Source of the DNA: Harmothoe impar
Taxonomy: Eukaryota; Annelida; Polychaeta; Phyllodocida; Polynoidae
Length of the DNA stretch: 64,000 nt
Direction of reading: 5' to 3'
Assembly (NCBI GenBank): GCA_947462335.1
Contig: OX381720.1
Coordinates: 4,037,501-4,101,500 of the forward strand
The notes under the pieces were generated by a model that saw only the letters and a list, made by a program, of their open reading frames with translations, searched no databases and was not told the origin of the DNA. The translations under genes and the position numbers were made by a program. This document shows positions 11,970-32,427 of this stretch, in pieces (the first letter of the stretch is position 1; the number at the start of each line of letters is the position of its first letter).

Positions 11970-11998
11970 AGACAAGACAGCGGTACTTAGCGTATCGT

Positions 11999-13855: not shown

Positions 13856-13942
13856 AGTAGTATATAGGAGCATATTCAGCGCGTAGTAAACGGGTGCATC
13901 TAGGTCAGTTGACACTTGCAGAACGGAAGTGACCTCTGTCAA

Positions 13943-14016: not shown

Positions 14017-14049
14017 CTAGTACAATGTCAACATGACCTACTTCACTTG

Positions 14050-14144: not shown

Positions 14145-14204
14145 TAATGCCGTCACATGCTAAAGACAAACACAAGGCAAGAAATATTATTTTGGTTACT
14201 TTAT

Positions 14205-15143: not shown

Positions 15144-15774
15144 TGTATATATTTCTTGACACTAATCAGAAAAAAATAATTTTCTCTGATGAATTTGACG
15201 GACAAAGAGAGTTTAGTAAAGTAGTCTGAAATCAGTCAGTGGCGTCTTTGTAACAACTCTCTTTTCACGCCTGCTTTTTATTTTTTGGTGTGATACAGTT
15301 CACTTTTTTTTGTTATTTTACGAGCTTTTTTTTAGCGATATAGTTCACTAGGAGAGAAATTGAGGTGAAACATTCGGAGAGAAATTGGATAATTTCCTCG
15401 AATGTTCAACTATAATTTCTCTCTCTTTCTCTTTATAGAAGCTTTATTATTTACATTTTTATGAAAATTTTTCATGAAAATTTTTCTCTTTTCTTCTTTT
15501 TTTTTTACTATATAGTTAGTACTACTTAATTTCCAATTATGGAAATTTTTTCTTTTTCTTCACAGAAAATTTTCCTTTACTCCTTCTTTTTTTTTACTAT
15601 ATAGTTAGTACTACTTAATTTCCATTTGTGGAAATTTTCTTTTCTTCACAGAAAATTTTCCTTTTTCTCTTTAACTATTTTCTCTTTTCTTTTTTACTGT
15701 AGGAAAATACTGTTAGTTTTTTTACTTTTTTTTGAGTGATACAACTCACTTGTCTTTATCACACACAAACACAA

Positions 15775-15806
<32 letters not shown>

Positions 15807-15820
15807 ACAGAAAGAGAGAG
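15144..15820. promoter_or_regulatory. T-rich intergenic region with tandem and inverted repeats
   Basis: Downstream of PolB and upstream of the 312-aa gene (both minus strand). A unit containing ACTATATAGTTAGTACTACT is repeated at about 15,509 and 15,596, each followed by a small ATTTCC...GGAAAT hairpin and TTCACAGAAAATTTTCC. A further AGAGAGAAATT/AATTTCTCT inverted pair lies near 15,351-15,425. A (CA)n tract ends the region (15,766-15,808). A TATA-like ATATATAC lies just before the ATG at 15,143. Probably promoter and 3'-end signals. Confidence 0.5.
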
Positions 15821-18800
15821 TCATATATCTAAAGGTTCAGTGCTGACACCATCTTCACATACTATTCTCTTAATGTACTGGTAATTTAGACCTTGCTTGT
15901 TCTGAGAGTATGTAGTGACGTGATGGTCTATAACTCTGAAACCTCTGTTTGTCACTACATGAGTCTTTTCTGTTTTCAAAACGTTCTGATAATTTGTCTC
16001 AGTAAGATTATTCTGCCTCTGGATAACTCCTTTGCAACTAGTCTTATTCCCTGTCTCACTGACACACATGTAACATTTAGGGTTCAAAGATGTCATAGCG
16101 TCTCCTTCCCACTCTATCTTGAACAGACCTGGAGTTCGCTTGTCAAACACCAGGCGGCGATAGCAACACGGTGGTTGTACCCATGGGTAGTTGTGTGTTC
16201 TGCATTGAATGTACGTCTCTCTATGTTCGGGATTATCACAAGATTCAGAAGGTAACCACTTGTGGCGCTCTCTGAAGTATTGCTCACGCATATCAGGTTT
16301 GACAGCTTCGTCTAAATTCTTTTTAGACAATGCAAAATAAAAACTGTCAGTGTCCATTTCACACATTTCAAAGTCTTTTGAGTCAATGAACTTCAACAAG
16401 AAGTCGTAGTAGAACGCTAACATTTTCAGTTTAGCATACTGGTATACCATGAACCCAATCTGAACAGGTAAGTCGTATGTGATACTAGTCGGGAGAGATG
16501 ACATTTCTACAGTGTTCTCACTGATGTCATGCACTTGTTGTACTGACCAGTGCAGACAATGTCGACTAGCAAAATCTGGACTTACATATTTAGTATTCAA
16601 GAAATTCTGCTTGTTACATATAGTCTTACCATATGAACTGTTACCTAACAGTTTATACAAGTCAGACAAGATCTTGCAGTCAACATTCTCATCTCCTTTC
16701 CGTCTAGCTGCTGTCACTTCTTGTACAAAAGGTCTGAAAGTTTCTTCAGGTGTGTATTGAACTAACAAGTGCACTTTGCTAACTACTAAACCTTTCTCTA
16801 GATACCACTTAAGTAACGGAGTACCTAGTAGAAGACCTGATCCATGGAAACTACCTATCAACTGTCTCTGAGGTTGGCGCAGTTTCCCTACACTTTCTAG
16901 ATAACTTTTCATATGGTCACCTACATCTTCTTTGCTGACAAGAATGTTCTTGAAAACGGGTGTCATTTCAGCAAAATATGGTTTGAGATGTTCAGGTGTG
17001 TGAATATCTACTTGAATCAACCCAAACACTGAACCACTTTTCACACCTTCTATTATCTCAGCTTGACTCATCTTACCAGCTGAAGACGGTCTATTAACAC
17101 TCCATTCAGGTTTCAGTTTCAAACACTGAGTGTTTTTTCGTAATTTGATCCACTGACATTCATATTGTTCTACTACTGTGTAACCTAAACTTTTCAGATA
17201 CAGAGTTACAGCAGCTGTTTTAGTAGAACGCTCTTCTATCCATTCCCGACCCTTCGTACTAGTCATCAATGTCTTGTTGATCTGACATGTATGACCATGC
17301 CAATAGCAACCGTGGAACTGATATATCAATTTACGATCAGGGACTATCCCATCTACTCTTATACGCTGACTACCTACACTGACTTCACCATAGTTGTATT
17401 GATGTAAAATAGGTACTTTGTCTACTATAGCTCTGTAACGGAGCCATTCTACAGCTGAGTAACTGATTTGCTGACTGAGAACAGGCTTGAAATCATCTTC
17501 GTGACGTCTCACTACATAGAAACCTGTACAATGAGCTTCACCCATACATTTCAAGTACAAACTATTTGCATCTACTCCTAAAATGTGATCACACTTTTTA
17601 CTCTCAACTCCATACTTACGCTCTCTTATTCTAGTTATACCACTACGATGGTGTCTGTGGAATATTATAGCAGGTCCACCAACTAAATTCTTTCTCAGTA
17701 AGTTGTGGACTTCTTTTTCATGATGTGAAAAGAGAACATAAGGTGTCGCATTCAACTCAGTGTTCTGAAAGAGGAACTTCAAAGTCAAACCTGGAAGTGT
17801 CAAACCATCTTTGAACATGTCGACACTCCTTTCTATGAAGAACTTGCTATGTTCATTTATAGCTCTGACAAATGGAGCTACATCTAAATTGTTATAGTAC
17901 ACTAAGTAGTCTTTCATTGTTTTCATTTTTTCTTTCACCCACACTTCTTTACAGCTTCTATACTCAGCTTGAGTTATACCTTTCCCAGTCAGAGAGCTAT
18001 AGAAACTTCTCCTAGGTGGGAGAGTTGTGTTATCTAATTTTCGGACATTGTCCATCCACTCATAAGGAAAAAAACCTTTCTCTGTGTCTTTCAAAAAAGC
18101 TTTCAAATAACTAGCGTAATTATAACCTGGAGCTAGATAGTTCACCATGTCTAAGAAGACTAAGTGCTCAGTGTATACAGCAATGTACTGGTTGCACCTT
18201 TTTATAGTCGTCATAGGTTTCTTTTCTCTTTCTGAGAAGAAAGTGTGGAAGCTTCTCTTTATTAGATTTAAGTCATATCGACCTGAGTTAAAACCTACTA
18301 CAGGTACTCTGTTCATATAAGCTGTCAGAGCTTGTTTAGCTCTGACGACAGGTGATAAATTATACTTACTTTTCTCTAACTTAGCAGCTTTCAAAGCTGC
18401 ACTCTCTAACCTTTCCTCTTCAGCTTGCAGAGCATCTAGCTGATCTGTCACTACTTTAAAACGCTCTCTGACACATTCACCTATTTCACAAGCTAACATA
18501 TCTATGTACCCTAATACACGACTGACTAAGTCATCATTTTCCCTGTTACTCTCTCTGACAAAACACACTGGTTCTGTATACCCTGGAAAGTCACTAGCTA
18601 CACTAGCAGACAGTGGTACATGATCTAACTCAAAAGTTGTGTTACAACTTTTCTCACCGTTCTTTACAAAATAACTTTCAAAGTCAAAAGCAATCTTATA
18701 TGGGTATATCTTTAAGTGAGCAGGTGTATGTACACCTAGCTCACTCAACTTCTGAAATATAGTTCTACTAGGTTTGTACACACCCCCTTTGTATATAAAT

Positions 18801-19903
18801 CGTACTTTAGTACAGTCTTTTGTTACAGCAGTGTGTCTCTTCAAGTTGTAATTAGAAGAGAATGCTTTGTAACATTTTTCACAACTGTACACGCGCCCAT
18901 ATTTACACATGTCTACTATCAGACTCAAGTGGTTGCGGTACATGTTGAGATTCAAGACTTTCTTGCTACTACAAAGCTTGCTACGCACTACAGTCACTTT
19001 ATTAGTACTAGACAGCTTGAACACTCGTATGTCTATTTTGAATACTTTCTCTAATCTATCTAAATCACTTAAGAGAATACCTTTGAACTTTTTCTGACAA
19101 GTGTCTGGATAAGCTTCTTTGAAAAGCTCTACAGTTCTATCTAATGTTTTATACAAGTGGTGTGACAAGCATCTAAAGAAACACAAGTTGTCTCTGTACA
19201 CTCTCTTACTGTAAGAGTCTCGGTGGAAGTGTAACATACCTCTTTTCCTGAAACTAGGAGGGACACTCTCTAACTTACCTAAGAACACATTTGTAGGTCT
19301 AATATAAGTCAGATTCACATTCACATTACCTACTACTGTCCACTTTGTGTCAGGTCTACTTGTGTCAACTTTCACTTTACTTTTCAATAGATCTATGCAA
19401 CTTTCAAAGCTCTCAGAGTTCTTAACTAAGAAGTAAGGGTCTTGATGGTCTTCACTGTCATAAAAAACTGAAGAGTTGTTAGCTGAAGCATGAAAATACA
19501 TGACTCTTTGCTCAGCGTCTTCAGTGCAAGTCAAAATTCGACCAAAAGACACAGCTACTCTATAACTGTATAACTGGTTCTCATGTATAGCTCTGAGAGC
19601 TGTCACTATCTCACTCACTCCTTGATCAGATTCAAAAGTAGTTAATCTGACGTTATATATAGCTTGTACACAACCTAACACAACTAAACCTTGACCTATC
19701 GATCTGAAATTTGATTTGTAATATTCTAAGAAAAGAGAGTTTTTCTCAATCTCTTCAGGTAAAACTGTTTCACTAGAGAAGACTTCTCTCAAGCAAGTCT
19801 CTGAAGTACACAAGTTCTTACTACTGTTATGTATAGTAACTTGTCTAGGAATTCTAGGTGCATTACACCGAATACAACTGATAGTATTCACGTGTCTATG
19901 CAT
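15821..19903 (-). CDS. polB: Family B DNA polymerase, protein-primed type
   Basis: 1,360 aa, full length for Polinton PolB. The exonuclease motifs are Exo I DFES (407-410), Exo II FNSGRYDLN (538-546) and Exo III YYNNLD (669-674). The polymerase motifs are A DANSLYL (778-784), B LLGNSSYGK (1085-1093) and C DTDS (1184-1187). The long insertions between exonuclease and motif B, including FHGCYWHGH at 863-871, fit the DNA_pol_B_2 protein-primed group. The N-terminal 400 residues carry a C2HC finger (C341, C344, H357, C364) and a YRDNLCFFRCLSHHL segment seen in this class. It should replicate the linear element from protein-primed ends; the terminal protein itself is not identified. Confidence 0.95.
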   Translation of the reverse strand: MHRHVNTISCIRCNAPRIPRQVTIHNSSKNLCTSETCLREVFSSETVLPEEIEKNSLFLEYYKSNFRSIGQGLVVLGCVQAIYNVRLTTFESDQGVSEIVTALRAIHENQLYSYRVAVSFGRILTCTEDAEQRVMYFHASANNSSVFYDSEDHQDPYFLVKNSESFESCIDLLKSKVKVDTSRPDTKWTVVGNVNVNLTYIRPTNVFLGKLESVPPSFRKRGMLHFHRDSYSKRVYRDNLCFFRCLSHHLYKTLDRTVELFKEAYPDTCQKKFKGILLSDLDRLEKVFKIDIRVFKLSSTNKVTVVRSKLCSSKKVLNLNMYRNHLSLIVDMCKYGRVYSCEKCYKAFSSNYNLKRHTAVTKDCTKVRFIYKGGVYKPSRTIFQKLSELGVHTPAHLKIYPYKIAFDFESYFVKNGEKSCNTTFELDHVPLSASVASDFPGYTEPVCFVRESNRENDDLVSRVLGYIDMLACEIGECVRERFKVVTDQLDALQAEEERLESAALKAAKLEKSKYNLSPVVRAKQALTAYMNRVPVVGFNSGRYDLNLIKRSFHTFFSEREKKPMTTIKRCNQYIAVYTEHLVFLDMVNYLAPGYNYASYLKAFLKDTEKGFFPYEWMDNVRKLDNTTLPPRRSFYSSLTGKGITQAEYRSCKEVWVKEKMKTMKDYLVYYNNLDVAPFVRAINEHSKFFIERSVDMFKDGLTLPGLTLKFLFQNTELNATPYVLFSHHEKEVHNLLRKNLVGGPAIIFHRHHRSGITRIRERKYGVESKKCDHILGVDANSLYLKCMGEAHCTGFYVVRRHEDDFKPVLSQQISYSAVEWLRYRAIVDKVPILHQYNYGEVSVGSQRIRVDGIVPDRKLIYQFHGCYWHGHTCQINKTLMTSTKGREWIEERSTKTAAVTLYLKSLGYTVVEQYECQWIKLRKNTQCLKLKPEWSVNRPSSAGKMSQAEIIEGVKSGSVFGLIQVDIHTPEHLKPYFAEMTPVFKNILVSKEDVGDHMKSYLESVGKLRQPQRQLIGSFHGSGLLLGTPLLKWYLEKGLVVSKVHLLVQYTPEETFRPFVQEVTAARRKGDENVDCKILSDLYKLLGNSSYGKTICNKQNFLNTKYVSPDFASRHCLHWSVQQVHDISENTVEMSSLPTSITYDLPVQIGFMVYQYAKLKMLAFYYDFLLKFIDSKDFEMCEMDTDSFYFALSKKNLDEAVKPDMREQYFRERHKWLPSESCDNPEHRETYIQCRTHNYPWVQPPCCYRRLVFDKRTPGLFKIEWEGDAMTSLNPKCYMCVSETGNKTSCKGVIQRQNNLTETNYQNVLKTEKTHVVTNRGFRVIDHHVTTYSQNKQGLNYQYIKRIVCEDGVSTEPLDI

Positions 19904-19982
19904 TTTAAAAACTCTTCAGATATACACTCTCTCCTTCTTTTTTTCTTTCCTTTTTTCCACTAAAACATACTGACTAACAAAC

Positions 19983-19986
19983 AAGC

Positions 19987-20021
<35 letters not shown>

Positions 20022-20022
20022 T
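19983..20022 (+). repeat. (CAGA)n microsatellite
   Basis: About nine CAGA units in the 200-bp gap between PolB and the 510-aa gene. Confidence 0.9.
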
Positions 20023-20101
20023 AATGCAAAGAATTTACAGCCCTATCAATACAGTGTTGAGGAACCTTACAACTGATGTAATTTAATTGTTGAGCACTCA
20101 C

Positions 20102-21634
20102 CTAATCAGTCTCATCGCAAGTGGTAACACCTCTGTAAAAGTTCTTGTCACTCTCCAGCATCGGCCCAACACGTTCCAGTATGTCTTTGATCGTGTTGAC
20201 AGTCACCGTGTACCCACAGTGTATTGGGCTTGTTGTTGCTCGACCTGCCGGCAGCGCTTTATCCATTTCTTCCACGTACGACGACGTTCCGATGTGGATC
20301 TTAGGTTGTCCCCTGTAGAGGTTGACTAACACACCTGTGTGTTTGACAGGGTTGTCTAAGTAGTTCAGATAGTTCTGGACTGCTGGCGCTCCTTTCTTGG
20401 CTTCTTCTTTAATCCTGTCATAGTTCTCTATGATAGATTTGCTCTGGTAGAAGAGCCCTCTGAAGTCGTTTGCTCGTAAGTTGACGCGCCTCTCGTAAGG
20501 CTTGTTCAAATATTGCCTTATTGAGACGCCACTGATGAAGGGGAGCTTGTATACTTCAAGCAGCGTGCATGTATCCCCAGGTGGGTAGAAGAGTTGGTCA
20601 GGAACAATGCTACCTTCAGCTTGTTGAGATGGGAAACCAAACCGACTAGGCCACTTCTCACCAGTCAAAGGGACTATGCGGAAGTTAGCCAGCTTAGACC
20701 CAACTTTCTTGGATCCATTCCTCGGCGGAAGCGGTGTCACAACAGCAGTAGCAACCGTAGATTGGGAAGTAACACTTCCCACACCAGCCTTTGCAGCACG
20801 TGCAGCAGCTGCAGCTACAGTAGCCACACTCTTGGTGTACTTTCGCTTATTTTTTTTTTCAACAACTGCTTCTGGCTGAATCTGTGGAGATGGACCTCTT
20901 TTAGTAGCAGTCGTCACGCCCTTGGGAGGATTCACTTCACCACTTGTGTCACCTACTACTCTTGAGTAGTACTCATCTGTGACTACTGTAGCTTCCCCGT
21001 TGATGACGACGACAGTGTCGGTCAAGCCAGGAGTGATGACGGCCCCGGCACTATCCCTCACTACAATGTCGGCTGGTACAGCTGTAGTGACAGGTGAGGA
21101 AGGTGGCGCACAGCGTCCTTCAGCTTCAGCTTTCTGGAACCACTCATCTAGTACTTCATTCAAGTCGTGCCCGATGATTTCACCTTCTTCTACTTCGTCC
21201 TCTGTCAAGTCGATGACGATTGGCGTACTGGGTCGAAGTATCTCATCACCAGTCAAGTCGATGATGACTGGAGGAGTAGCGGCAGTGGGAAGAGCTCCAT
21301 TGCCTCGGCCCACGGGCATGACGTGTGACAGGGTCTGGTAAGTGAGGACATCTTGGGGTGGTTCAGGGTTGCTGAAGCTTGTAGAGCTCAAAGCTGGTGC
21401 TGACGTAGATACATCACGGTCCAGTACGCCAGTGGAAGGAGCCAGCATGCAGTCCAGATCGTGATGTAACCCCAAGATAGCTGCACTCTGCTCTTCAGGT
21501 GTACTTGGACGATGAATCCACTGTACTTCATTGCTCACTGTAGGAGGTATCTCCACAGAAACGTCCAGAACTAAGTTCTTGCTCTTAGCTACTTTAGAAC
21601 TCTTCTTAGAGCTCTTGTTGCCAGCAGACCGCAT
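20102..21634 (-). CDS. Unknown protein with two SUMO-interaction-like motifs
   Basis: 510 aa, divergently transcribed from the right arm. The N-terminus is Lys/Ser-rich (SKKSSKVAKSK, possible nuclear signal). Two near-identical motifs, VIIDLTGDE (123-131) and IVIDLTEDE (139-147), match the SUMO-interacting motif: a hydrophobic core plus acidic tail. Residues 155-320 are low complexity with Ala/Thr/Val runs and a basic KKNKRKYTK patch. The C-terminal 190 residues (from about TGEKWPSRFGF) look folded and contain LYRGQPKIHIG. It sits next to PolB, so a replication partner such as a terminal or ssDNA-binding protein is possible; I do not recognise the family. Confidence 0.75.
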   Translation of the reverse strand: MRSAGNKSSKKSSKVAKSKNLVLDVSVEIPPTVSNEVQWIHRPSTPEEQSAAILGLHHDLDCMLAPSTGVLDRDVSTSAPALSSTSFSNPEPPQDVLTYQTLSHVMPVGRGNGALPTAATPPVIIDLTGDEILRPSTPIVIDLTEDEVEEGEIIGHDLNEVLDEWFQKAEAEGRCAPPSSPVTTAVPADIVVRDSAGAVITPGLTDTVVVINGEATVVTDEYYSRVVGDTSGEVNPPKGVTTATKRGPSPQIQPEAVVEKKNKRKYTKSVATVAAAAARAAKAGVGSVTSQSTVATAVVTPLPPRNGSKKVGSKLANFRIVPLTGEKWPSRFGFPSQQAEGSIVPDQLFYPPGDTCTLLEVYKLPFISGVSIRQYLNKPYERRVNLRANDFRGLFYQSKSIIENYDRIKEEAKKGAPAVQNYLNYLDNPVKHTGVLVNLYRGQPKIHIGTSSYVEEMDKALPAGRATTSPIHCGYTVTVNTIKDILERVGPMLESDKNFYRGVTTCDETD

Positions 21635-22378
21635 CCTAAACTAAAACAGTTAGTTTTGTAGAAGTTGAAAAGTAGAGGCAGCGTGTAGAGTGGCAAGTGT
21701 AGAGTAGAGTAGTCGTCACAGTTGAGCAGCTCAGGAGCGGTTTGATTTCAACTGAGCAAATCAAGGGGTATATATACTAATTTTACTGAGAACGATTGTC
21801 AAACGTTGTCACACGTTTGTTGAACGACAATAGACGAACATTTGACGTCTGACATTTTTTTCATATTTCATCTCTAATTGTTATTGTACGACAATTATAC
21901 GCACATGTCACTATAGTAAAGCACTAGGCTGAGTTTAGATACAATGTATCTTTATCAACCACACTACATAAATAAGCACGGGATAACCCATAACAGACTA
22001 GTGCTTCTGCGGAGAGCAAAACAAAAAAAGTTGAAAAACAACAGTTGGAAATGTGAACTCTATTCAGATAGCACAGTGGCTGTCAGCTGGATGGGGCGTT
22101 GCAACATAAAAGGAACGTTCATGAATGCTGTATCTTATACTACACTTTTCAAGATGAAAAAATATAAATACAGTCTAAATTTTTTTTTAAACTTATTATA
22201 TGATTGACAAGTTTGAAGGTGAAGTTTACATTTTCTTCTTGACGTTTATTTGAAAGATTTTCTTTCAAGTGAGTTAATTTGTGAACACTACTTTTCTAGA
22301 GAGGGTGGGGGAAACGATTAGTGTACGTTGAAAACAACCGGCTGTGATCAGATTCAAACTGAGCAGCTCTGAGACAAC
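21635..22378. promoter_or_regulatory. Divergent promoter region between the two arms
   Basis: No convincing gene. A GTATATATAC-like TATA box at about 21,764-21,772 serves the minus-strand 510-aa gene about 130 bp downstream. AACGATTGTCAAACGTTGTC-type words and ACAAT/ATTGT inverted pairs cluster at 21,788-21,900. An 87-codon ORF (21,944-22,207) is probably chance. The plus-strand gene starts at 22,379 without an obvious TATA box. Confidence 0.5.
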
Positions 22379-23071
22379 ATGTCCAGTGCAGCTTGTACAC
22401 CTCTACCGATTTCACTCAGCACTAAACACAGGCGGTCAGTTTGGGAGTTCATTTCAGACGTCAAGAGTGGAGTAGAGACTGGTGAGGAAAAGCAGTTGTT
22501 CAGATATTGTCCTGAAGAGTACATCAGAGATAGTTACATACCTCCAAATTTAGATTTTTCAAATTGTTTTCTGCATAACAACACGACTCCCATAAATGCT
22601 AGTAGTCCTTCTCTCAAGAAGTTCATAACTAGTTCTACTGGGAAAGCTACTCAATCTGAAGTAGTGAGTAACGTGTTACTGCTAGTTTCTAAGTTACAAC
22701 ACAGTGTAACTTCTCATAGTGTAGTAGCTTCAGCTATCAACTTTCAAAAATGTAGGACGAAACCCTACTTCAAAATTAATCAGCTCGAATCACACCAGCT
22801 GGGAAATTCTGTGTTCATCTCTACGAGTATGGTACATGGCTTAATCAAGCACACAGTATCAGCTCCTGACAAGATAACACGTGCTAAATACTCTTCAGAT
22901 CGGTTTTTGTATGAAAGAGCATACAAGACTGAGATTGGACACAATGCAAACGGGTGTTGTCACGTTGTAAGAGTAGTTGTACAACGTTGTCAAAACCCTA
23001 CTCTACTGTGCCAAGGAGTCTTGTATGAACTGGTGACAGCCTTTCCAACTCAATCCTTCTCCCCTAACTGA
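22379..23071 (+). CDS. Unknown 230-aa protein, first gene of the right arm
   Basis: Uninterrupted 230-aa frame starting shortly after the divergent promoter region. No signal peptide, transmembrane segment or known motif is seen. It has mixed composition with Ser/Thr-rich stretches and a C-terminal segment CCHVVRVVVQRCQNP that looks like a buried beta strand. It has no counterpart in element 1. Position suggests an early gene. Confidence 0.6.
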   Translation: MSSAACTPLPISLSTKHRRSVWEFISDVKSGVETGEEKQLFRYCPEEYIRDSYIPPNLDFSNCFLHNNTTPINASSPSLKKFITSSTGKATQSEVVSNVLLLVSKLQHSVTSHSVVASAINFQKCRTKPYFKINQLESHQLGNSVFISTSMVHGLIKHTVSAPDKITRAKYSSDRFLYERAYKTEIGHNANGCCHVVRVVVQRCQNPTLLCQGVLYELVTAFPTQSFSPN

Positions 23072-23277
23072 TGAAAAAAAAACCTTGACCAATAGTCTAT
23101 TAGATGCTTCACAAAAAAATAAAAAAAGTGAAAAAAAAGGTATAGGTGTACTAACAAACTAACTCTGGTCTCTCATATATTGAGAGACCCCCCTTCAAAC
23201 TGTCACTCTACTTCTTAAAAATTTTACATGCACACTGTGTTTTAAACGGTTAGTTGTCAAGTCATAAATCACTCAGA

Positions 23278-23287
23278 GTATATAGGG
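23278..23287 (+). promoter_or_regulatory. TATA box for the DUF5662-like gene
   Basis: GTATATAGGG, 46 bp upstream of the ATG at 23,333. Confidence 0.5.
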
Positions 23288-23332
23288 TCGTGTAAGTGCA
23301 CTCACTCATTCAAACGACCTTTCAACGTCATC

Positions 23333-23986
23333 ATGAAGACAGCTCACGACCTCTACACGCTAGTTAAAGCTAGATACCCTGAAGACGAGTTAGTATTACA
23401 GTATGTGTGTGAAAGAAAAGAGTCTGTCACATGCACTGTAAAAACTTTACAGTACATTTTCAATCATTTCAAACAGACTTTAGAGCATAGGAAATGGTTG
23501 TATTACACTTGGGTTCTGCTAAGTGATAGCTTCAATGAGAGTGAAGCTAAATGTATAGACAAGTTGATAATGAAGCACGACTTGTCTAAGTTTTCAGCTG
23601 TAGAAGCTGTTGGATACGGGTGGAAGTTTGGCCGCCTTAAGAGTTCAAAACCTCTCAAGAACTCTGACCACCTTGCAATGTGGGAATCAGCGCTGAAACA
23701 TCACTACGCAAACAACCCTCATCATCCTCAGTACCACTCTAATCAAGACATGCCGACACATTACTTGTTAGAGAGTATCATAGACATGCTAGGTTGTCGG
23801 CTTCAAAGGAACTTAGCAGGTCGTTCAGATTTGAAAGTAGAAGACATTTTCAAAATCCCAGATACGTATCTAGAACGTTACACTGAAGCAGACAGACACA
23901 GAGTTAAAACTTATTTAAGTCAGTGGGAGCGTGATATTACAACGTCCCCTCATCGTAGTGGTTTAGCGCTCAGAATGTTATTGTAA
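23333..23986 (+). CDS. DUF5662/HD-hydrolase-like protein
   Basis: 217 aa. Around residues 77-135 it shows IMKHDLSKFSAVE, then W-x-SALKHHYANNPHHPQY, then an M-x-HYLLESIIDML helix. An HD pair, a Lys-Phe-Ser/Glu partner, a double His and NPHHPEY-type spacing are hallmarks of the DUF5662 family, common in phages and large viruses and thought to resemble HD-domain phosphohydrolases. If correct, a nucleotide or nucleotide-derivative hydrolase role is possible, with His82, Asp83 and the His cluster binding metal; no activity is known. Its own TATA box suggests separate expression. Confidence 0.65.
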   Translation: MKTAHDLYTLVKARYPEDELVLQYVCERKESVTCTVKTLQYIFNHFKQTLEHRKWLYYTWVLLSDSFNESEAKCIDKLIMKHDLSKFSAVEAVGYGWKFGRLKSSKPLKNSDHLAMWESALKHHYANNPHHPQYHSNQDMPTHYLLESIIDMLGCRLQRNLAGRSDLKVEDIFKIPDTYLERYTEADRHRVKTYLSQWERDITTSPHRSGLALRMLL

Positions 23987-24024
23987 ACACTCTGATAAAA
24001 AAGTGAAACGTTAGTGCATCGTAT

Positions 24025-24093
24025 AGAGTTGGGTGGGGTGGGGGGTGTGTATAGTATTAGCATAGGGTGTATGGGGTGGGGGCACCCCTCTAG
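24025..24093 (+). other. G-rich tract, possible G-quadruplex
   Basis: Runs of 3-6 G (GGGTGGGGTGGGGGG, then AGGGTGTATGGGGTGGGGG) on the coding strand about 100-160 bp upstream of the TATA box of the death-domain gene. Confidence 0.5.
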
Positions 24094-24183
24094 TGTGAAA
24101 TGGATAGGGGGGCGAGGAGTTCGAACTCAGAACGTTTTGCATACTCTTTACACGATTTCCCTACGTATTCTAGTCTAAAGAGC

Positions 24184-24193
24184 TATATAAAAG
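24184..24193 (+). promoter_or_regulatory. TATA box for the death-domain gene
   Basis: TATATAAAAG, 79 bp upstream of the ATG at 24,272; the best TATA match of the right arm. Confidence 0.65.
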
Positions 24194-24271
24194 CTCTCCC
24201 TAACCTACAACACCCCATACAACGCTCTACCTACCTACCTGCCTGTCTACTCCTTCACACACTCACTCATC

Positions 24272-24958
24272 ATGGCAGATTTCAATTTAGTAGTACCTGT
24301 ATCATCATTCTTCAAAGGAGAGCCGTTAGGATACTTACCAGACGCTATGCTACTGAAAATAAGTAGTAAGTTGCCGACATCAGATTACATACGGTTAGGT
24401 TCATACCTCAAAGTGAACTTGAAGGACATGGGATATCTCAGTTGTGAGAGAAGTGTCATAACTCAAGCTAGAGAAATGTTCACTACTTGGTACCAGAAAA
24501 GTTGTACTACTAGGTGGAAGGAACTAGCAGACGCCTTGGAAGAATCTTACCGTATGGACCTCATCCAATTCTCACGTGAGTACATGGACAAGCATGACAT
24601 GTGGGATGGCTTAGAGAGTGGAGACATAGAGTGGAAAGTGCAGAAATATTTCTCTCTTTTAGCTGAGCTCTGCCCTAGAGACTGGAAGACCATAGGGATC
24701 TACTTAGGGTTGACTTCTCATGAACTAGCTTTCATCTCTCAACCTGTGCCTTCTGACAGAACTGTCAAGAACCCTGTCTATGAAGTGCTGAGAGCTTGGA
24801 AGTACAACGAGACGTCTGAGCCTATGGCTCTGATGAAAGTGTTGCAAGACGACATGGGTCGCAGCGACGTCGCAATGTATGTTCAAGGGTTGTATGCAGC
24901 TGTACCCAAAGACATAAAAGTGAGCTGTGTCACTCCAGTGTTGACCACTCTCGTCTGA
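24272..24958 (+). CDS. Tandem death-domain protein encoded by element 2
   Basis: 228 aa with two death-fold repeats and little else. DD1 covers about residues 22-100 (LPTSDYIRLGSYL, AREMFTTWYQK, WKELADALEESYRMDLI). DD2 covers about 125-208 (CPRDWKTIGIYLGL, VYEVLRAWKYNE, ALMKVLQDDMGRSDVAMYV). Each shows the death-domain pattern: W-x2-(I/L)-G-x2-L-G-(L/I), then a helix ending M/V-L-x2-W, then a (L/A)-x2-(A/V)-L-x3-(G)-R-x-D helix. Death domains assemble apoptosis and innate-immune complexes by homotypic binding; a catalytic-less tandem protein from a virus-like element would be expected to act as a decoy or scaffold. It lies 13 bp before the ATPase gene with its own TATA box. No counterpart in element 1. 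The fold call is by motif only. Confidence 0.72.
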   Translation: MADFNLVVPVSSFFKGEPLGYLPDAMLLKISSKLPTSDYIRLGSYLKVNLKDMGYLSCERSVITQAREMFTTWYQKSCTTRWKELADALEESYRMDLIQFSREYMDKHDMWDGLESGDIEWKVQKYFSLLAELCPRDWKTIGIYLGLTSHELAFISQPVPSDRTVKNPVYEVLRAWKYNETSEPMALMKVLQDDMGRSDVAMYVQGLYAAVPKDIKVSCVTPVLTTLV

Positions 24959-24971
24959 TCACTGCACTAAG

Positions 24972-25661
24972 ATGGACGTCTCTAGCACTGTGGAATCTGT
25001 TGAATTCGATCCTAGACTACAGTCACCTTTCACTATGCTAATAGCTGGACCTACATCGTGTGGTAAGAGTCGTCTAGTATTCGAAGTGATAAATAACGTG
25101 AAGACTCTCGTCACACCTGAAGTACACGATATAACTTACTGCTACAGCCAGTGGCAAGCAGAGTTTGAAAAGTTGAAAAGTGCAGGTGTGAAATTCAACG
25201 AAGGTCTTCTTACAAGAGATGAACTTTTCAACTCTAGTCGAGATACTAGTAAACACTCGATGCTCATCATAGACGACTTGTTAGACCCAGAATATGCACC
25301 TATAGCTAAAGACCTCTTCATCAAAGGTTCTCATCATATGAACATGAATGTAATATTCATTACTCAGAACTTATTCTTTGCTAACAAAGACTTCAGGACT
25401 CTCAGTTTGAACAGTCATTATCTAGTTATTTTTAAAAACCCTCGAGATATGAGTCAGATAAGTTATATATCTAGACAAGCTTTCCCAGCGCAACCATCTT
25501 TCTTGACTCAAGTATATAACAAAGAGACTACAGCTAAACACTCATACATAGTGTTGGACTGTAAGCAGAGCACACCTGACAACTTGAGAGTGAGGAACAG
25601 TATAACAACACCTTGGAACAGCGTAGTATTCATTCCTACTGGGAAAAAGCAGAAGAAATGA
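24972..25661 (+). CDS. A32-like genome-packaging ATPase
   Basis: 229 aa, intact. Walker A GPTSCGKSR (26-34), Walker B LIIDDLL (98-104), and FITQNLF after it, as in FtsK/HerA-type packaging ATPases of Polintons, poxviruses and related viruses. It pumps DNA into the capsid. First gene of a tightly packed late cassette; its stop overlaps the next ATG (ATGA). The element-1 homologue carries a premature stop. Confidence 0.92.
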   Translation: MDVSSTVESVEFDPRLQSPFTMLIAGPTSCGKSRLVFEVINNVKTLVTPEVHDITYCYSQWQAEFEKLKSAGVKFNEGLLTRDELFNSSRDTSKHSMLIIDDLLDPEYAPIAKDLFIKGSHHMNMNVIFITQNLFFANKDFRTLSLNSHYLVIFKNPRDMSQISYISRQAFPAQPSFLTQVYNKETTAKHSYIVLDCKQSTPDNLRVRNSITTPWNSVVFIPTGKKQKK

Positions 25662-26068
25662 AGGGGAGTACTAAGAGTAAGCGTGCTGAGAGTCTTAAGC
25701 GCCGTCAGAGAAGTGCTTACTACCAAAAGTTAGTTTCTTTACGTCGTCATTACTCTCTGTTGAAACATATAGCTAAATGTAGTACTACAGACTGTCAACA
25801 TTTAGTGAGAGGTCTCAGTGAAGAAGTGATCAGACTAATGAGTGTCATATGTGTCAATGTAATGAACAAAACCTTGACACCGAACTCAATTCACGCAGTC
25901 AAGAAGTTATCGCCGTACAAGAAACAGCTGAGAGCTATAACAAAACCTAAGATTACTGTCATAGCTAAGAGACGAATACTACAGCAGAAAGGTGGCTTCA
26001 TAGGTGCACTACTGGGTGTAGCACTACCACTTATTACTAGTCTCATAGGATCAGCTGTCAAACGGTAG
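25658..26068 (+). CDS. pX/core-like small basic virion protein
   Basis: 136 aa from ATG 25,658, chosen because it forms the ATGA overlap with the ATPase stop and gives a very basic N-terminus (MKGSTKSKRAESLKRRQR). The middle matches element 1 (LKHIAKCSTTDC). The C-terminus is basic (KRRILQQKGGF) then hydrophobic (GALLGVALPLITSLIG). The layout recalls adenovirus core peptide pX, which condenses DNA; this is inferred from architecture and position. Confidence 0.72.
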   Translation: MKGSTKSKRAESLKRRQRSAYYQKLVSLRRHYSLLKHIAKCSTTDCQHLVRGLSEEVIRLMSVICVNVMNKTLTPNSIHAVKKLSPYKKQLRAITKPKITVIAKRRILQQKGGFIGALLGVALPLITSLIGSAVKR

Positions 26069-26070
26069 TC

Positions 26071-27099
26071 ATGTCTTACACACGTATGGCTTTAGTGAGA
26101 CCTGATTTAGTGGGTAGAAGCGACACCCCCATTTCTTCTACTACTAACACTGACCCGCTACCTAGTGCAACACTCGCGTCTTCTGCTCCAGCTGTGCTAC
26201 CAGACCCTCAAACTCAGTTCTATGAGAGTCAACTAGTCAGAGAAAAACTATCCCCACACAGTAGTCTAGTGGAGATATTGAGTCACTTACAGAAAGAAGC
26301 AACTAGAGTATTGAATGACTCTCAGTTGAACACTAGTGAGAGACTCAGTAGATACAACCAGCTCATGACTAAATCTTCTATACTATACAAAAAAGCTAAA
26401 ATTGTGAGTCGAGCTGCTTCTTCTATGAACCCTAGAAATATTACTCGACAACGTCACAAAAGAGGTAGGAGAGGGGAAGAAGCAGACGATGAAGCTACTT
26501 CAGGCGATGATGACGATATGTTTTCTACTACTAGTCATCAAACTCCAACTCCAAGTTTACCTGGTGCTAGTGGAGACGATGAATATGAGTCTCAAGAAGA
26601 AGAAGAAAGAGAAGAAGAAGACACAGGACCTATAGGTAGACAAGGTGTCATGGTGATGGATGCTTTAATTCAAAGGCGTGTACCTACTACTTATCAGAAG
26701 ACTGCTATGAATCTGTATAGACACTTAGCAGACTCTGACAAAGGTAGAGGTACTATCAACTGGACTCCTAGTGGTGAACTAGTAGTGCACGGGCGGCGTA
26801 TACAAGGGAGTAACATCATTGATCTACTAGGTGATGCAGCTCGGAAAAATAGTCTAACTAAGAAGCAACCTCCCATAGGACAAAAGTACTTCATCGCAGC
26901 TGTTAAAAGGTTGAACCCAGACCTCAAGTTCGTCAGAAACAAAGAATCTTTCAAGAGTGTTAGTTCTATGACTGGCTCCCCCTTCAGAAGACGTTCATAT
27001 AGTGTAACACCAAAGCGTAAACGTAAAGCTAATACTGCACAGAGTGGTACTGGTATAACATCTCGTCAACTAGCAAAGTTATGGCGGACAAAGCTTTGA
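26071..27099 (+). CDS. Conserved virion-cassette protein of unknown function
   Basis: 342 aa, two bases after the preceding stop. N-terminal YTRMALVRPDLV resembles the element-1 start (KRLALVDPETL). A helical region lies around 60-115. A strongly acidic stretch (SQEEEEREEEDTG) is followed by the conserved core YQKTAMNLYRHL...RRIQGSNIIDLLGDAAR. The C-terminus is basic with PKRKRKA. Conserved in position and core between the two elements, so probably a structural or assembly protein. The last 19 nt overlap the integrase gene. Family not recognised. Confidence 0.7.
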   Translation: MSYTRMALVRPDLVGRSDTPISSTTNTDPLPSATLASSAPAVLPDPQTQFYESQLVREKLSPHSSLVEILSHLQKEATRVLNDSQLNTSERLSRYNQLMTKSSILYKKAKIVSRAASSMNPRNITRQRHKRGRRGEEADDEATSGDDDDMFSTTSHQTPTPSLPGASGDDEYESQEEEEREEEDTGPIGRQGVMVMDALIQRRVPTTYQKTAMNLYRHLADSDKGRGTINWTPSGELVVHGRRIQGSNIIDLLGDAARKNSLTKKQPPIGQKYFIAAVKRLNPDLKFVRNKESFKSVSSMTGSPFRRRSYSVTPKRKRKANTAQSGTGITSRQLAKLWRTKL

Positions 27100-28163
27100 A
27101 GAAAGCTGTAGTAGATCGCTATACTTCAGTCAGAGAACCTGGAAGTTTCACTAGCGTGAGTAAATTGCGACACCATCACTTTAAGAAGACTGACTTAAAA
27201 AACATTGCTGAAGCTTTAGAAGATGTGGATGCTTACACTAGACACAAACCTTACAAGAGACGGTTCACAAGACACAAGACTCAGACTTGGGGTATAGATA
27301 GACAATGGCAGTTAGATCTTATTGACATGAGAGAGTCTTCACGTGAGAACAAAGGGTACCAGTATATTTTAGCTGGTATAGATGTCTTCTCAAGATATGG
27401 CTTTGCTCAACCTGTCAAGAGTAAGAAAGCTGTAGATGTATTAGAAGCTTACAAGAAAATGACTGAGAGTAGACAACCTGTTAAAATCCAGACTGACAAA
27501 GGAAAAGAATTTTTGAACCAAACTTTCAGAAGTCATCTAGAAGAAAGGGGTGTAAAATTGTTCACTGGAGAGAACGATGACGTGAAATGTGCTATAGCTG
27601 AACGATTTAACGCCACACTGCAAGGTAAGCTGTGGCGTTGCTTTGCTTACTTCAACAACTACAAGTGGACAGGCATACTTCAAGATCTAGTCCACTCTTA
27701 CAATAGTACTGTGCATAAGACACTAGGTGCAGCTCCAGTAGACATCACAGACAAGAACTCTGATGCTCTGTTCTACAGGCTATATGAACAACCACCAGAC
27801 AAGAGGACTGTGCCCAAGTTACTTTTGAAGAAAGGTTCTAAAGTGCGCATGCTTGCTAAGAAGCGCGCTTTCAACAGAGGTTACGAACCTAACTGGACTG
27901 AAGAAGTATACACTATAGATTCTGTTAAACCTAAAGGATACCAACTGAAAGATGAACTAGGAGAAGAGATAAAAGGAACTTTCTACCAGCCTGAAGTTCA
28001 AAAGGTCCATGTCCGTCAAGGGAAGAGGTACGACATAGAGGAAGTAGTGAAGTACAGAGGCTCAGGTCGTAAGCGTCAAGCATACGTCAAGTGGAAAGGT
28101 TACGGGGATAAGTTCAACACGTGGGAACCTGCTAAGAACGTGAAAAAATGGCGTTCACAATGA
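27081..28163 (+). CDS. int: Retroviral-type integrase with C-terminal chromodomain
   Basis: 360 aa. Catalytic core with D79 (WQLDLIDM), D139 (QTDKGKEF) and E174 (IAERFN), the DDE triad of the rve family. The C-terminal chromodomain (about 312-358) includes AYVKWKGYGDKFNTWEP with the aromatic residues that read methyl-lysine histones. It inserts the element with a 6-bp stagger, consistent with the AGTGCA duplication, and the chromodomain may direct it to particular chromatin. No N-terminal HHCC zinc domain is obvious. Overlaps both neighbours (19 nt and 16 nt). Confidence 0.95.
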   Translation: MADKALKKAVVDRYTSVREPGSFTSVSKLRHHHFKKTDLKNIAEALEDVDAYTRHKPYKRRFTRHKTQTWGIDRQWQLDLIDMRESSRENKGYQYILAGIDVFSRYGFAQPVKSKKAVDVLEAYKKMTESRQPVKIQTDKGKEFLNQTFRSHLEERGVKLFTGENDDVKCAIAERFNATLQGKLWRCFAYFNNYKWTGILQDLVHSYNSTVHKTLGAAPVDITDKNSDALFYRLYEQPPDKRTVPKLLLKKGSKVRMLAKKRAFNRGYEPNWTEEVYTIDSVKPKGYQLKDELGEEIKGTFYQPEVQKVHVRQGKRYDIEEVVKYRGSGRKRQAYVKWKGYGDKFNTWEPAKNVKKWRSQ

Positions 28164-29497
28164 CACTACCTAGCAACTCGTCTATGAAAGTTTTCCCAGA
28201 CAACACTCTGACAACTTACAACACATTGTTACCTGAGTATGTATCTTCTAGTACTCCAATGGAGTGTGCTCTGCAAGAAATAACGTGTCCTACTAGTTGG
28301 TACAACGTAGAATGTGAGACATTGTTGTTCATAGAAGGTGAAACAGACTCAACTATACCCAAGAGCGTCATGAGTGCTAAAAGACTACAAGAAGCACTAC
28401 ATAAGCGAAGCTCAGACTTTTTTCCTTACACAGCGAACGATCCTGTGTTGAATAGGAAAAGTTCAAGTATACACGACAGCGTAGCTAAGAAGTGTCTACA
28501 GCGAGGTGTAGAGATCAAACGCTCTAAACAAGTACCAGTACGACAACCTACAGCGAGACTTAGTGTAGAATCAGACCCAAGCTCTGGAGAAGTAGCGCGA
28601 CCTGCGCCGCCACCTAGTGTCGAATCGGACAGCGAAACCGAAACTGAACCAGACCCTTTAGCAGAAGTGCCGCCATCTGGTGCAGACAGTATCACTTACA
28701 GAATAGTACGCGGTTTGAACCCCGAGAACCGTGCGAGTGCAGCAGTCTCAGCTGTGAGAGATTCACTCAACTTAAATTACACAGAGAAAGCAGCATTCAT
28801 AAACGGGCTTACTACTAGAGAGTCAGAAGTTTTGACTGAGGAAGAACTCAGAGTAGTGAAAATAGAATTAAAGTTGAAGTATTTAGATAAACTAGTCAAC
28901 ACTTTTCAATTCCCAGCAGTCCGGACATATACAGCTTTCTCTCTGCAAGGTGTATATCTACAAGACAACAGTGACTTCATAAATTATCTGAACAAGTGTA
29001 TAAACAGGAAACACCCTAGTATCATCAAGAAACTGAGGACACACCACAAGAACAATAAATCTAACGTGTTCACATACAACAGGTATACAATGAAGTGTAT
29101 TGTAGCTCTACCCCCTGATGTTGTGATACAACTACCAGTTAACTTAGGTGTGCAGTTAGGATTCGGAGGTGGAGTCTTCTTGATGAATAAAACTGAAGGT
29201 CAAGCTGTAGTAGACTTGAAGTTCAGAGCTCAGACTGTGTATGTATACTCTGATATAGTGAAACATAACATTGTTGGAGACAAGAGAGCACCTCTCTTGA
29301 GAGTTGTAAACATTAATCCACTGCTAGGTGACACACAGACTGTCACTTTCCAACCTTTGATGTACCAACCTGTGAGTAAGAGCAGCTTCAGACAGATCGC
29401 GATCTACTTAAGAGACAGCACAGGTCGTCCTATACCATTTGAACGTGGAGCAGTGACTGTAGTACTAGCTTTTAAGCCTATAAGCAACCACATATAG
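28148..29497 (+). CDS. Penton-like minor capsid protein
   Basis: 449 aa. The N-terminal MTLPSNSSMKVFPDNTLTTY and MECALQEITCPTSWYNV, and the C-terminal IAIYLRDSTGRPIPFERGAV, are also in the element-1 copy and are typical of the Polinton minor capsid (penton) protein, a single jelly-roll that fills vertices. A low-complexity insertion around 125-180 (Pro/Glu/Ser-rich) is specific to this copy. Overlaps the integrase end by 16 nt. Confidence 0.85.
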   Translation: MAFTMTLPSNSSMKVFPDNTLTTYNTLLPEYVSSSTPMECALQEITCPTSWYNVECETLLFIEGETDSTIPKSVMSAKRLQEALHKRSSDFFPYTANDPVLNRKSSSIHDSVAKKCLQRGVEIKRSKQVPVRQPTARLSVESDPSSGEVARPAPPPSVESDSETETEPDPLAEVPPSGADSITYRIVRGLNPENRASAAVSAVRDSLNLNYTEKAAFINGLTTRESEVLTEEELRVVKIELKLKYLDKLVNTFQFPAVRTYTAFSLQGVYLQDNSDFINYLNKCINRKHPSIIKKLRTHHKNNKSNVFTYNRYTMKCIVALPPDVVIQLPVNLGVQLGFGGGVFLMNKTEGQAVVDLKFRAQTVYVYSDIVKHNIVGDKRAPLLRVVNINPLLGDTQTVTFQPLMYQPVSKSSFRQIAIYLRDSTGRPIPFERGAVTVVLAFKPISNHI

Positions 29498-29504
29498 TAA
29501 CAGT

Positions 29505-29996
29505 ATGCTTCAGCGCTTTGGCCCACCTCCATACTTAGCCCCTAGAGGGGAGTATGGTGCTTACTATGCTAAATCTCAGTTTGGTCACGGTGTTCTACCA
29601 GCTTTCGGTGGAGTAGCTAGGCAACGTGGTCATGGTATTGGATCTATCATATCAGGATTACTGCGAGGAGCTGTCCCCCTTTTGAGCACTATTGGTCGTA
29701 AAGTTGCTAAGACAGCTGGCACAGCACTACTCTCTACAGGTGCAGGAGTACTTTCAGATGTCATGGCTGGAAAACCACTCAAGAAGAGTGTAAACAAACA
29801 TGTCAGAGGTCAAAGCCAAGCTCTATTGAAGAGAGCTCATTCTTCAGCTCAGAACTACATAAACAGAGTGTCTCAACCGACTCCAGCCAAACGCCGTGCG
29901 ACAGTCCGACGTGCAGGACGTACTAAGCAGCAGACAGGCAAAGGGCGCAAGAAGAAGAAGCAGAGTCATGCTAGCAATAAAGCACTACTGTTCTAA
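29505..29996 (+). CDS. pVI-like minor virion protein
   Basis: 163 aa. N-terminal Tyr/Gly/Pro-rich segment, then an amphipathic region (RGHGIGSIISGLLRGAVPLL), then GAGVLSDVMAGKPLKKS, then a basic Lys/Arg/Gln tail. Same order as the 141-aa element-1 protein. By architecture a membrane-lytic or cement protein like adenovirus pVI. Two bases separate its stop from the capsid ATG. Confidence 0.72.
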   Translation: MLQRFGPPPYLAPRGEYGAYYAKSQFGHGVLPAFGGVARQRGHGIGSIISGLLRGAVPLLSTIGRKVAKTAGTALLSTGAGVLSDVMAGKPLKKSVNKHVRGQSQALLKRAHSSAQNYINRVSQPTPAKRRATVRRAGRTKQQTGKGRKKKKQSHASNKALLF

Positions 29997-29998
29997 TC

Positions 29999-31312
29999 AT
30001 GAGTCTGTTACATCCTCATGGCCAGACATGTGCTGTAGGAGAGTTAGATCTCCATGCAGTAGGAGTGACTCAAAAAGACATTCTGAAAAGTCAGACAGTC
30101 ACTAAGACAACTAACAATGCTTTGACTGACCACACTGACTCTTTCGACTTTACTTTTGAGCCAACTACTCTGTACACAGATTTGAGTGAAGCAGAGTTGT
30201 ACTTGGAAATAGAAGTTGTAGATGCTGCTGGGACACGTCTAGCAGTAGGTGACGAAGCTGCACCTGTGAACAACATAGGCCACTCCCTCTTCTCTTCTGT
30301 TCAACTGTTGATCAACGGAGAGAAAGTGACAGGGAACAATGAAGACTATGCACTGAAATCGACATTGTTAGACTTAGTAGGAACTGAAGTGAACGACAAG
30401 ACTACTCGGTTGAAGGGTCTACAGAAGTGGATGATGGACACAGCTGGCCACATGGAAGGACGAGTTGCTGCTAACACGGGTTTCGTTGCTCGCCGGAAAG
30501 AGTTCAGTGCAAGACGGACTCACGGAGTCATCATCAGACCCCACATCGACCTCCTCAAGCAGTGCAAGCTCTTCCCTTCACATTGTGAGTTCAAGTTCAT
30601 ATATGAACGTAGCTCTCCAGCTTTCTACATGATGCAAGCTGCAGACTTGGACTTCAAAGTGAAGATCACTAAAGCTGAGATGAGCGTGCGCCAAGTGACT
30701 GTGAGAGACGAAGTAGCTGAAGTCCACAATAAAACAGTGATGAACCCTCAGTTCGGGCCATTCAACTACACTCTGACGAGGTGTCGAGTCACTAAACACA
30801 CTCTAGACGGAGGGTCACAAGAGTACAGTTGGACTCAACCCGACACAAGCCAGATCCCGACCCGTGTCCTACTAGCTTTAGTCAAAGAGACTGCAGCGTC
30901 AGGCACTAAAAGCGAGAACCCGTTCAACTTCCAGAACTACTCAGTGAGAGAAGTAGGTCTGAAGTATGATGACCATAAATATGAAGTGAAGACTGACTTT
31001 GCTGCAGGGAACTGTGTGAAAGCTTACAGGAACTTGTTCAGAGAGACAGGTCTACTAGCTGTAGGTCAAGATTGTGGTCTCAGTTTAGAACAGTTCCAAT
31101 CAGGGTACACAGTCTTCGCTTTCGACCTGACTCCAGACAGGACTCCTGAATGCCCACGCATCAACTTAGTGAAGCAAGGGAAGTTGACTGTGTCTCTGAG
31201 GTTCAACGCTCCTACAAATCACGCCATCTCAGCTGTCATCTGTGCTTTCTACGACAACAACATCCAACTCACAGCTGACAGACTACCAGTCACAGACTAC
31301 CACATGGCCTGA
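29999..31312 (+). CDS. MCP: Major capsid protein, double jelly-roll type
   Basis: 437 aa, intact, collinear with the 435-aa element-1 protein from ELDLHAVG to the C-terminal TDYHM. Shared landmarks include APVNNIGHSLFSSVQLLING, TAGHMEGR, SPAFYMM and FDLTPDR. Identified by length, position before the protease and pairwise conservation; Polinton capsids of this kind build T-number icosahedral shells. No separate TATA box precedes it here, unlike in element 1. Confidence 0.87.
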   Translation: MSLLHPHGQTCAVGELDLHAVGVTQKDILKSQTVTKTTNNALTDHTDSFDFTFEPTTLYTDLSEAELYLEIEVVDAAGTRLAVGDEAAPVNNIGHSLFSSVQLLINGEKVTGNNEDYALKSTLLDLVGTEVNDKTTRLKGLQKWMMDTAGHMEGRVAANTGFVARRKEFSARRTHGVIIRPHIDLLKQCKLFPSHCEFKFIYERSSPAFYMMQAADLDFKVKITKAEMSVRQVTVRDEVAEVHNKTVMNPQFGPFNYTLTRCRVTKHTLDGGSQEYSWTQPDTSQIPTRVLLALVKETAASGTKSENPFNFQNYSVREVGLKYDDHKYEVKTDFAAGNCVKAYRNLFRETGLLAVGQDCGLSLEQFQSGYTVFAFDLTPDRTPECPRINLVKQGKLTVSLRFNAPTNHAISAVICAFYDNNIQLTADRLPVTDYHMA

Positions 31313-31316
31313 GAAG

Positions 31317-31766
31317 ATGAAGACTTCACAACTGAACACTGTTCTTAGCCAACACCCTCACACTCGACGATACTTCCTAGGTACTTTCCCTAGTGATGAG
31401 TGCCCTGCTGAAGCAACACCTCTGACTTGCTTTGTCAGTAACACACACCCCCACACACAACCTGGACAACATTGGATAGCTTTCTATGTTCAGAGTGATG
31501 GAGTAGTGTACTATTTCGATCCTTATGGTTTACCCCCTATGAGTGTATATCACAGAGCGTTCTTGAAGAAATCGTCAGACAAGCGTGGGACGTTCAACAA
31601 GCAACAACTACAAAGTTTATACACTAAGACTTGTGGAGCTCATTGCATCAACTTCTTGATAGAAACATGTCGAACCCAAGACCCTCAACACACTCTACAC
31701 AACCTTCTCCAACTGCCAACCAACCTGACCGATCGAATGGTCCAGCCATACATGAGTCTATACTAA
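31317..31766 (+). CDS. Adenovirus-type maturation cysteine protease
   Basis: 149 aa from ATG 31,317, four bases after the capsid stop; the frame stays open upstream but overlaps the capsid gene. Catalytic residues: H52 in GQHWIAFY, D68 in YYFDPYGLPP, Q99, and C106 in KTCGAHC. Length and residue spacing match adenain-type proteases that mature virion proteins. The last 100 nt are shared with the next gene in another frame. Confidence 0.9.
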   Translation: MKTSQLNTVLSQHPHTRRYFLGTFPSDECPAEATPLTCFVSNTHPHTQPGQHWIAFYVQSDGVVYYFDPYGLPPMSVYHRAFLKKSSDKRGTFNKQQLQSLYTKTCGAHCINFLIETCRTQDPQHTLHNLLQLPTNLTDRMVQPYMSLY

Positions 31767-32014
31767 AGTCTCTAGAGCAAGAAGCTGCAAGTACTAAACA
31801 CAACTTACTTGCAGACAGCACTCAGAGAGAATTAGACGTGATCGACGGGTTGAAGAGTAACGCTGATGTCATGGATAAAATAATTGATATGATCAGTCAG
31901 CTCATGTACAGAGTGAGGCAACTAGAAGAAGTTCAAGACAAGGCAGAAATGGAGAAAACTAAAACTGGAGGAGGGTGTGGGTTGAACTGTGCCAATAACT
32001 CATTCACTTTGTAA
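31667..32014 (+). CDS. Small coiled-coil protein overlapping the protease
   Basis: 115 aa from ATG 31,667, the first ATG conserved in both elements (ATGTCGAAC). The N-terminal 30 residues are Pro/Ser/Gln-rich and lie in the protease overlap. Residues about 50-100 form a heptad-like coiled coil (MDKIIDMISQLMYRVRQLEEV). The C-terminus is GGGCGLNCANN. A small trimeric or dimeric coil encoded last in a virion cassette could be a fibre- or cement-type protein; that is speculation. The element-1 counterpart is truncated. Confidence 0.65.
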   Translation: MSNPRPSTHSTQPSPTANQPDRSNGPAIHESILKSLEQEAASTKHNLLADSTQRELDVIDGLKSNADVMDKIIDMISQLMYRVRQLEEVQDKAEMEKTKTGGGCGLNCANNSFTL

Positions 32015-32129
32015 CTGCTTTGCTTTTTGCTTTGTGTGAAATAAAAAAAGAATGAAAAAAACAAATTGTGTCGTGTATCTGTGTATATACCAACGGTATT
32101 TATCGAATACTAAAGTTAGTATTCCATCT

Positions 32130-32421
32130 GCATGTGACGGTATTACTGAAATGTCATTGTTGACATTTGAAAGCCACGTGGTGTATAGCACGTGGTGTAT
32201 AGCACGTGTATGTGTTTACAAAGTTAGTAGGTCATATTGACATATATTAACCAATCAGAAGCTTGTAAAGTATGTCATGACCTCTAATCTAGGTCAGTGA
32301 CGTCACTTCCTGTCATATAGAAGCTTCTGATTGGCTCTTAAAGGTCACTTCCGTTCTGCAAGTGTCAACTGACCTAGATGCACCCGTTTACTACGCGCTG
32401 AATATGCTCCTATATACTACT
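32130..32421 (-). repeat. Right terminal inverted repeat of element 2
   Basis: Reverse complement of the left TIR; ends ...CTATATACTACT at 32,421. Contains three CACGTG (32,175-32,208), the CCAAT/CRE/CCAAT module and GGAAGTGACC. The outer 80 bp equal the left TIR. Confidence 0.95.
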
Positions 32422-32427
32422 AGTGCA
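32422..32427 (+). repeat. Target-site duplication AGTGCA, right copy
   Basis: Identical to 13,850-13,855. Confidence 0.95.

Follow-up and report, generated by a model that had tools for sequence, protein, structure and literature searches.

The tandem death-domain gene

The 64,000-nucleotide stretch of the Harmothoe impar genome analysed here (contig OX381720.1, positions 4,037,501 to 4,101,500; hereafter the window) contains an 18,566-bp Polinton that bears a gene for a small protein built of two death domains (DD), arranged as follows in window coordinates:

24272..24958, + strand: tandem death-domain gene, from the ATG at 24272 to the end of the stop codon at 24958, 228 aa; Pfam Death E 2.3e-13
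24341..24595, + strand: death domain 1 (DD1), residues 24-108, placed by modelled helices, a model of DD1 alone with fold search, and Pfam
24620..24901, + strand: death domain 2 (DD2), residues 117-210, placed by modelled helices, Pfam, and a FADD profile match (E 0.001)

Death domains are used in animal cells for assembling cell-death and immune signals. The full protein matches the Pfam Death family (PF00531) over two stretches (50.5 bits, cut-off 22.6), and the halves, tested separately, score 22.2 bits (E 1.6e-4, slightly below the cut-off) and 32 bits (E 1.4e-7), respectively. Death is the top Pfam family in all nine halves compared, two from the window and seven from relatives (E 3e-11 to 2.2e-4), neither half of the window protein lists a DED or CARD family in the Pfam scan, and hhalign relates one half to the other (E 1.4e-4, probability 52%). 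The models display the six-helix death fold, and in a fold search with DD1 modelled by itself solved death domains rank before CARD, PYD, and DED. Profile matches to the solved death domains of FADD and RIPK1 range from E 0.001 to 0.006, FADD being the best among solved structures (E 0.0011). An earlier note, made from the letters of this DNA, had read two death-domain-like repeats and no other domain; its coordinates, strand, and frame are correct, both repeats are borne out as Death rather than DED or CARD, and no further Pfam domain exceeds its cut-off in the 228-aa protein. An F-box match (E 0.06) fell below the cut-off and was not accepted.

Among viral death-fold proteins, DED and CARD types are known and PYD proteins also exist; a DD-only protein is not known to us from any virus family. 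The Polinton protein resembles (i) the viral FLIPs MC159 and K13, which likewise comprise two death-fold domains in tandem and no effector part, but with DED in place of Death; (ii) the CARD-only proteins of ranavirus and grouper iridovirus, which are small death-fold-only proteins of DNA viruses, but with a single CARD where the Polinton protein has a tandem DD and a tail, the grouper iridovirus protein inhibiting apoptosis according to PMC4457926; and (iii) FADD, a small adaptor with two death-fold domains, which are DED and DD in FADD and Death in both halves here. A literature search, outside which the founding adintovirus paper lies, returned no paper that pairs 'adintovirus' or 'Polinton' with 'death domain' and, for viral death-domain phrases, no title on a viral death-domain protein. 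A term search of the main texts of PMC11071296, PMC8363768, and PMC8097293 gave no mention of death domains, 'death' in PMC8363768 belonging to a birth-death model.

The DD1 fold matches include MC159 and vFLIP, and among them is the vFLIP-IKK-gamma complex (3cl3), a point in favour of an activator that would nucleate DD assemblies and turn host signalling such as NF-kB on, as vFLIP of Kaposi's sarcoma-associated herpesvirus does through IKK-gamma. Two interaction domains could indeed bridge or seed assemblies; nevertheless, Pfam recognises no effector or IKK-binding part and the evidence does not separate seeding from capping, and we regard such activation as unlikely.

The carrying Polinton and its gene order

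The element and the features next to the gene are the following:

13856..32421, no strand: Polinton bearing the gene, 18,566 bp, with inverted repeats and ends AGTAGT...ACTACT
13850..13855, no strand: left copy of the 6-bp target-site duplication, AGTGCA, from the sequence ends
32422..32427, no strand: right copy of the 6-bp target-site duplication, AGTGCA, from the sequence ends
13856..14022, + strand: left terminal inverted repeat (core), inverted-repeat pairs I1 and I6
32245..32421, - strand: right terminal inverted repeat (core), inverted-repeat pairs I1 and I6
23333..23986, + strand: DUF5662 gene, immediately upstream of the DD gene; Pfam DUF5662 E 1.6e-21; same place in regions L009-L012 of the host genome (see below)
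24184..24193, + strand: TATA-box-like site TATATAAAAG, 88 nt ahead of the ATG, a plausible, putative promoter
24972..25661, + strand: packaging ATPase; weak Pox_A32 and Adeno_IVa2 matches, and homologues with those domains

Terminal inverted repeats with a 6-bp target-site duplication, together with an integrase carrying a C-terminal chromodomain (open reading frame (ORF) 27081-28163, rve E 1.7e-10, Chromo E 6e-9), place the element among the Polintons/Mavericks. It shares with these and with adintoviruses the chromodomain integrase, ATPase, protease, 6-bp duplications, and (AGT)2//(ACT)2 ends, and ends of the AGTAGT...ACTACT type are the commonest end motif of vertebrate Mavericks (both from section 7 of PMC8097293). 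The label 'adintovirus' given by the earlier note suits the integrase with its chromodomain, but no relative was found in IMG/VR with the DD protein, the ATPase, or the hexon as query.

The packaging ATPase begins 13 nt past the DD gene, which thus lies directly upstream of it, as had been noted. The DD gene heads a tight block that continues into ATPase, integrase, penton, hexon, and protease (PRO); spacings from the DD gene to PRO range from -49 to +13 nt, following a 285-nt gap before the DD gene, and depend on the chosen starts (p151 from a TTG, PRO from 31308). The proposal that the gene has its own TATA box holds insofar as the site TATATAAAAG is present, but TATATAAR occurs in the window 6 times against 5.2 expected, no commoner than chance, so that the box taken alone is weak evidence.

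The ORF at 15821-19903 (- strand) we take to be PolB from its size, its place, and a DTDS motif; in Pfam, NCBIfam, and PDB searches solely zinc-finger and Vsr-like matches of note were obtained, the Vsr-endonuclease-like part comprising residues 849-925 (PDB E 5e-4; NCBIfam E 3.7e-5). The 510-aa protein of the element contains, at 21194-21268 (- strand), two adjacent motifs, VIIDLTGDE and IVIDLTEDE, presumably of the SUMO-interaction-like class. At 4660-12451 the window holds another, divergent Polinton fragment, whose ATPase is 46% identical; it shares the order ATPase, integrase, penton, hexon, protease, and neither PolB nor clear inverted ends were found in it.

Relatives in public assemblies

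A single-sequence search of public assemblies returned 8 relatives of the DD protein and a profile search 18, one of which belongs to the window's own family (1 residue different) while the 17 others are 39-73% identical. The protein measures 225-231 aa in most homologues, P0006, P0008, and P0018 being visibly shifted or cut and P0003 and P0017 having no start, and Death is matched by ten of ten proteins in P0009-P0018 and by all eight in alignment A1. Because these relatives and those of the host genome keep nearly equal length, the gene is more than a chance ORF. Four of the 18 DD contigs are equal in size to contigs of ATPase homologues (the best 120 of 136 were compared), against 0.19 expected after jittering, and none of 20000 trials reached four. 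Across these four linked contigs and the window, DD and ATPase distances correlate (r 0.81, 1/120 permutations), and those of the DD are larger by a factor of about 2.3. The linked contigs and the correlated distances argue that the DD gene and the ATPase descended together and that the former was not captured repeatedly; some other long ATPase contigs have no DD match of equal size, absence and a missed match being indistinguishable there.

Copies and divergent families in the host genome

A protein search of the host genome (G000, 1.51 Gb) located the DD gene at at least 150 places (150 scored of 3695 candidates), with at least residues 1-227 covered at 97% identity or more, and 148 of the 150 scored copies have no internal stop, which indicates a very recent spread of the element's DD gene. 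The order DUF5662-DD-ATPase on a single strand is kept in all 30 flanked copies, the window among them, and the ratio of non-synonymous to synonymous polymorphism (pN/pS) is 0.31 among 49 genomic copies (29 distinct), a biased sample.

A Death search of the same genome (150 scored of 1467) yielded twelve regions, chosen from multicopy-looking rows. Nine of them (L009-L014, L017, L018, and L020) contain a long tandem-DD match, L019 has the two domains apart, and L015 and L016 gave no tandem-DD match at 1e-5. Recognisable Polinton genes accompany seven of the nine, including (i) DUF5662 and PRO in L009-L012, with hexon additionally in L009 and L012; (ii) PolB in L013 and L020; and (iii) ATPase and integrase in L014. 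L017 has a neighbour ORF in common with L020 and L053, both with PolB; in the fetched region of L018 no recognisable Polinton gene was found. The ratio of non-synonymous to synonymous divergence (dN/dS) is 0.24 for L011-L012, 0.11 for L009-L010 (few changes), and 0.83 for L017-L020, three further pairs being saturated. About 440 nt downstream of the tandem-DD gene of L017 lies a single-BIR, IAP-type ORF (L017:4731-5135, E 1.6e-15).

In L009-L012, which make up four of the nine and of which L009 and L010 are near-identical, DUF5662 immediately precedes the DD gene. The gene orders of the elements differ: the DD gene precedes the ATPase in the window, follows PRO in L009-L012, and lies near PolB in L013 and L020. 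These differing orders fit an accessory module. They also bear on a virion or assembly protein, which would turn the helical assembly of death domains to the construction or packaging of particles. Such a protein would fit the leading position in the block, the conserved length, and the agreement of DD and ATPase distances over five linked genomes. Against it, PRO and DUF5662 precede the gene in L009-L012, where it stands outside the virion block; the solved structures nearest to the protein are signalling domains; and its distances exceed those of the ATPase, though virion genes may evolve fast too. We regard a structural role as rather unlikely.

The host-type relative and the probable direction of capture

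In L019 the DD1 and DD2 stretches are separated by about 820 nt and have splice-like borders, ...ttatttcag / gtgaga for DD1 and ...tatttcag / gtactc for DD2, so that they read from the sequence as two putative exons, with a coiled-coil-like frame downstream. No Polinton gene, PolB included, was found within about 28 kb around them. In a domain tree of 47 rows, from which the window DD at 42915 was excluded for its long branch, L019 DD1 groups with 19 element DD1s (99/97), and L019 DD2 groups with 20 element DD2s and lies outside all of them (96/84). The element groups exclude six further death domains of the genome (L001, L002, L004, L005, L007, and L008), whose 3.2-kb stretches gave no Polinton gene beyond the DD match. 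Profile scores agree in register: L019 DD1 scores 83 bits against element DD1 and 32 against DD2, and L019 DD2 75 bits against element DD2 and 45 against DD1. Two observations point the other way: the Pfam scan of the first L019 stretch puts the bacterial death-like bDLD3 above Death, and L019 DD1 stands beside one element clade (94/78), not outside both.

The element gene and L019 thus share a tandem ancestry. Since L019, a host-type gene, pairs these domains in an identical order, the capture from the host that had been proposed becomes likelier, and the direction was probably from host to virus; the gene is, however, an old one of several divergent Polinton lineages and not this element's alone. 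Flow in the reverse direction, with L019 derived from a Polinton and its introns gained, the gene serving, for instance, to defend the host against elements, is very unlikely: L019 DD1 nests beside one element clade (94/78) and G000 holds very many element copies, but DD2 lies outside all 20 element DD2s, the surroundings of L019 gave no Polinton gene, and gain of the linker intron is less simple than its loss.

Proposed function

We consider it on balance probable that the gene encodes an old, Polinton-borne tandem-DD adaptor, derived from a cell as one unit, that damps host death-domain signalling. A cellular tandem-DD gene, whose interruption between the two domains the element lacks, would have been taken as one unit and then kept by several Polinton lineages. 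The protein is most likely at work within the infected cell, where its two DDs may join host death-domain assemblies of FADD, RIPK1, PIDD, or MyD88 type; without an effector part the signal would not be passed on, the assemblies would be capped or diverted, and cell death or NF-kB type signalling would be dampened. Two DDs and no effector suit a decoy or bridge, a reading preferred to a structural role in view of the BIR neighbour, of a place that changes within the element, and of the host-type relative. A structural role is favoured by the close retention of the gene and by its leading position in the virion block. If the adaptor reading is true, it suggests that Polintons fight animal cell-death defences in the fashion of viruses, and the capture is traceable, since one genome holds both the virus families and a host-type relative, with the domain pair in register.

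The C-terminus adds a further feature:

24911..24955, + strand: loose C-terminal tail, residues 214-228, with a T-L-V end, candidate class I PDZ ligand; predicted local distance difference test (pLDDT) < 50

In class I PDZ ligands position -2 is S or T, and an adenovirus E4 oncoprotein is among the earliest viral PDZ ligands (PMC8506081). An [ST]-x-V end on the loose tail makes the protein of the window's clade a candidate ligand of this class: the end occurs in 12 of 15 intact C-termini against 1 of 120 ATPases, TTLV closes all 49 genomic copies, and positions -2 and 0 are less variable than -1 and the preceding eight residues. None of the nine divergent proteins has such an end; in six of them the last 20 residues include three or four Cys. 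An additional role of the S/T-x-V tail, in the window's clade, may be to tether the adaptor to a PDZ protein.

A broader reading, which we hold only tentatively, is a class of Polintons with a dedicated DD-signalling module, captured once, with clade-specific tails and a long contest with the host, which would be the first viral family of the Death domain proper. The module would consist of the tandem-DD adaptor, often by DUF5662 and once by an IAP, and the PDZ-type S/T-x-V and Cys-rich tails would place the protein at different cell sites.

Other open reading frames in the window

The host region of the window contains a death-domain ORF at 42915-43337 (- strand; Pfam Death E 2.4e-5), near a coiled-coil-like ORF at 43664-44809 (- strand). 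A Gag-like ORF with a zinc knuckle, probably of a retroelement, lies at 1492-2742 (- strand), and an intronless ORF at 49699-50826 (+ strand) encodes a tocopherol cyclase domain (Pfam E 7.1e-15) in this animal genome.
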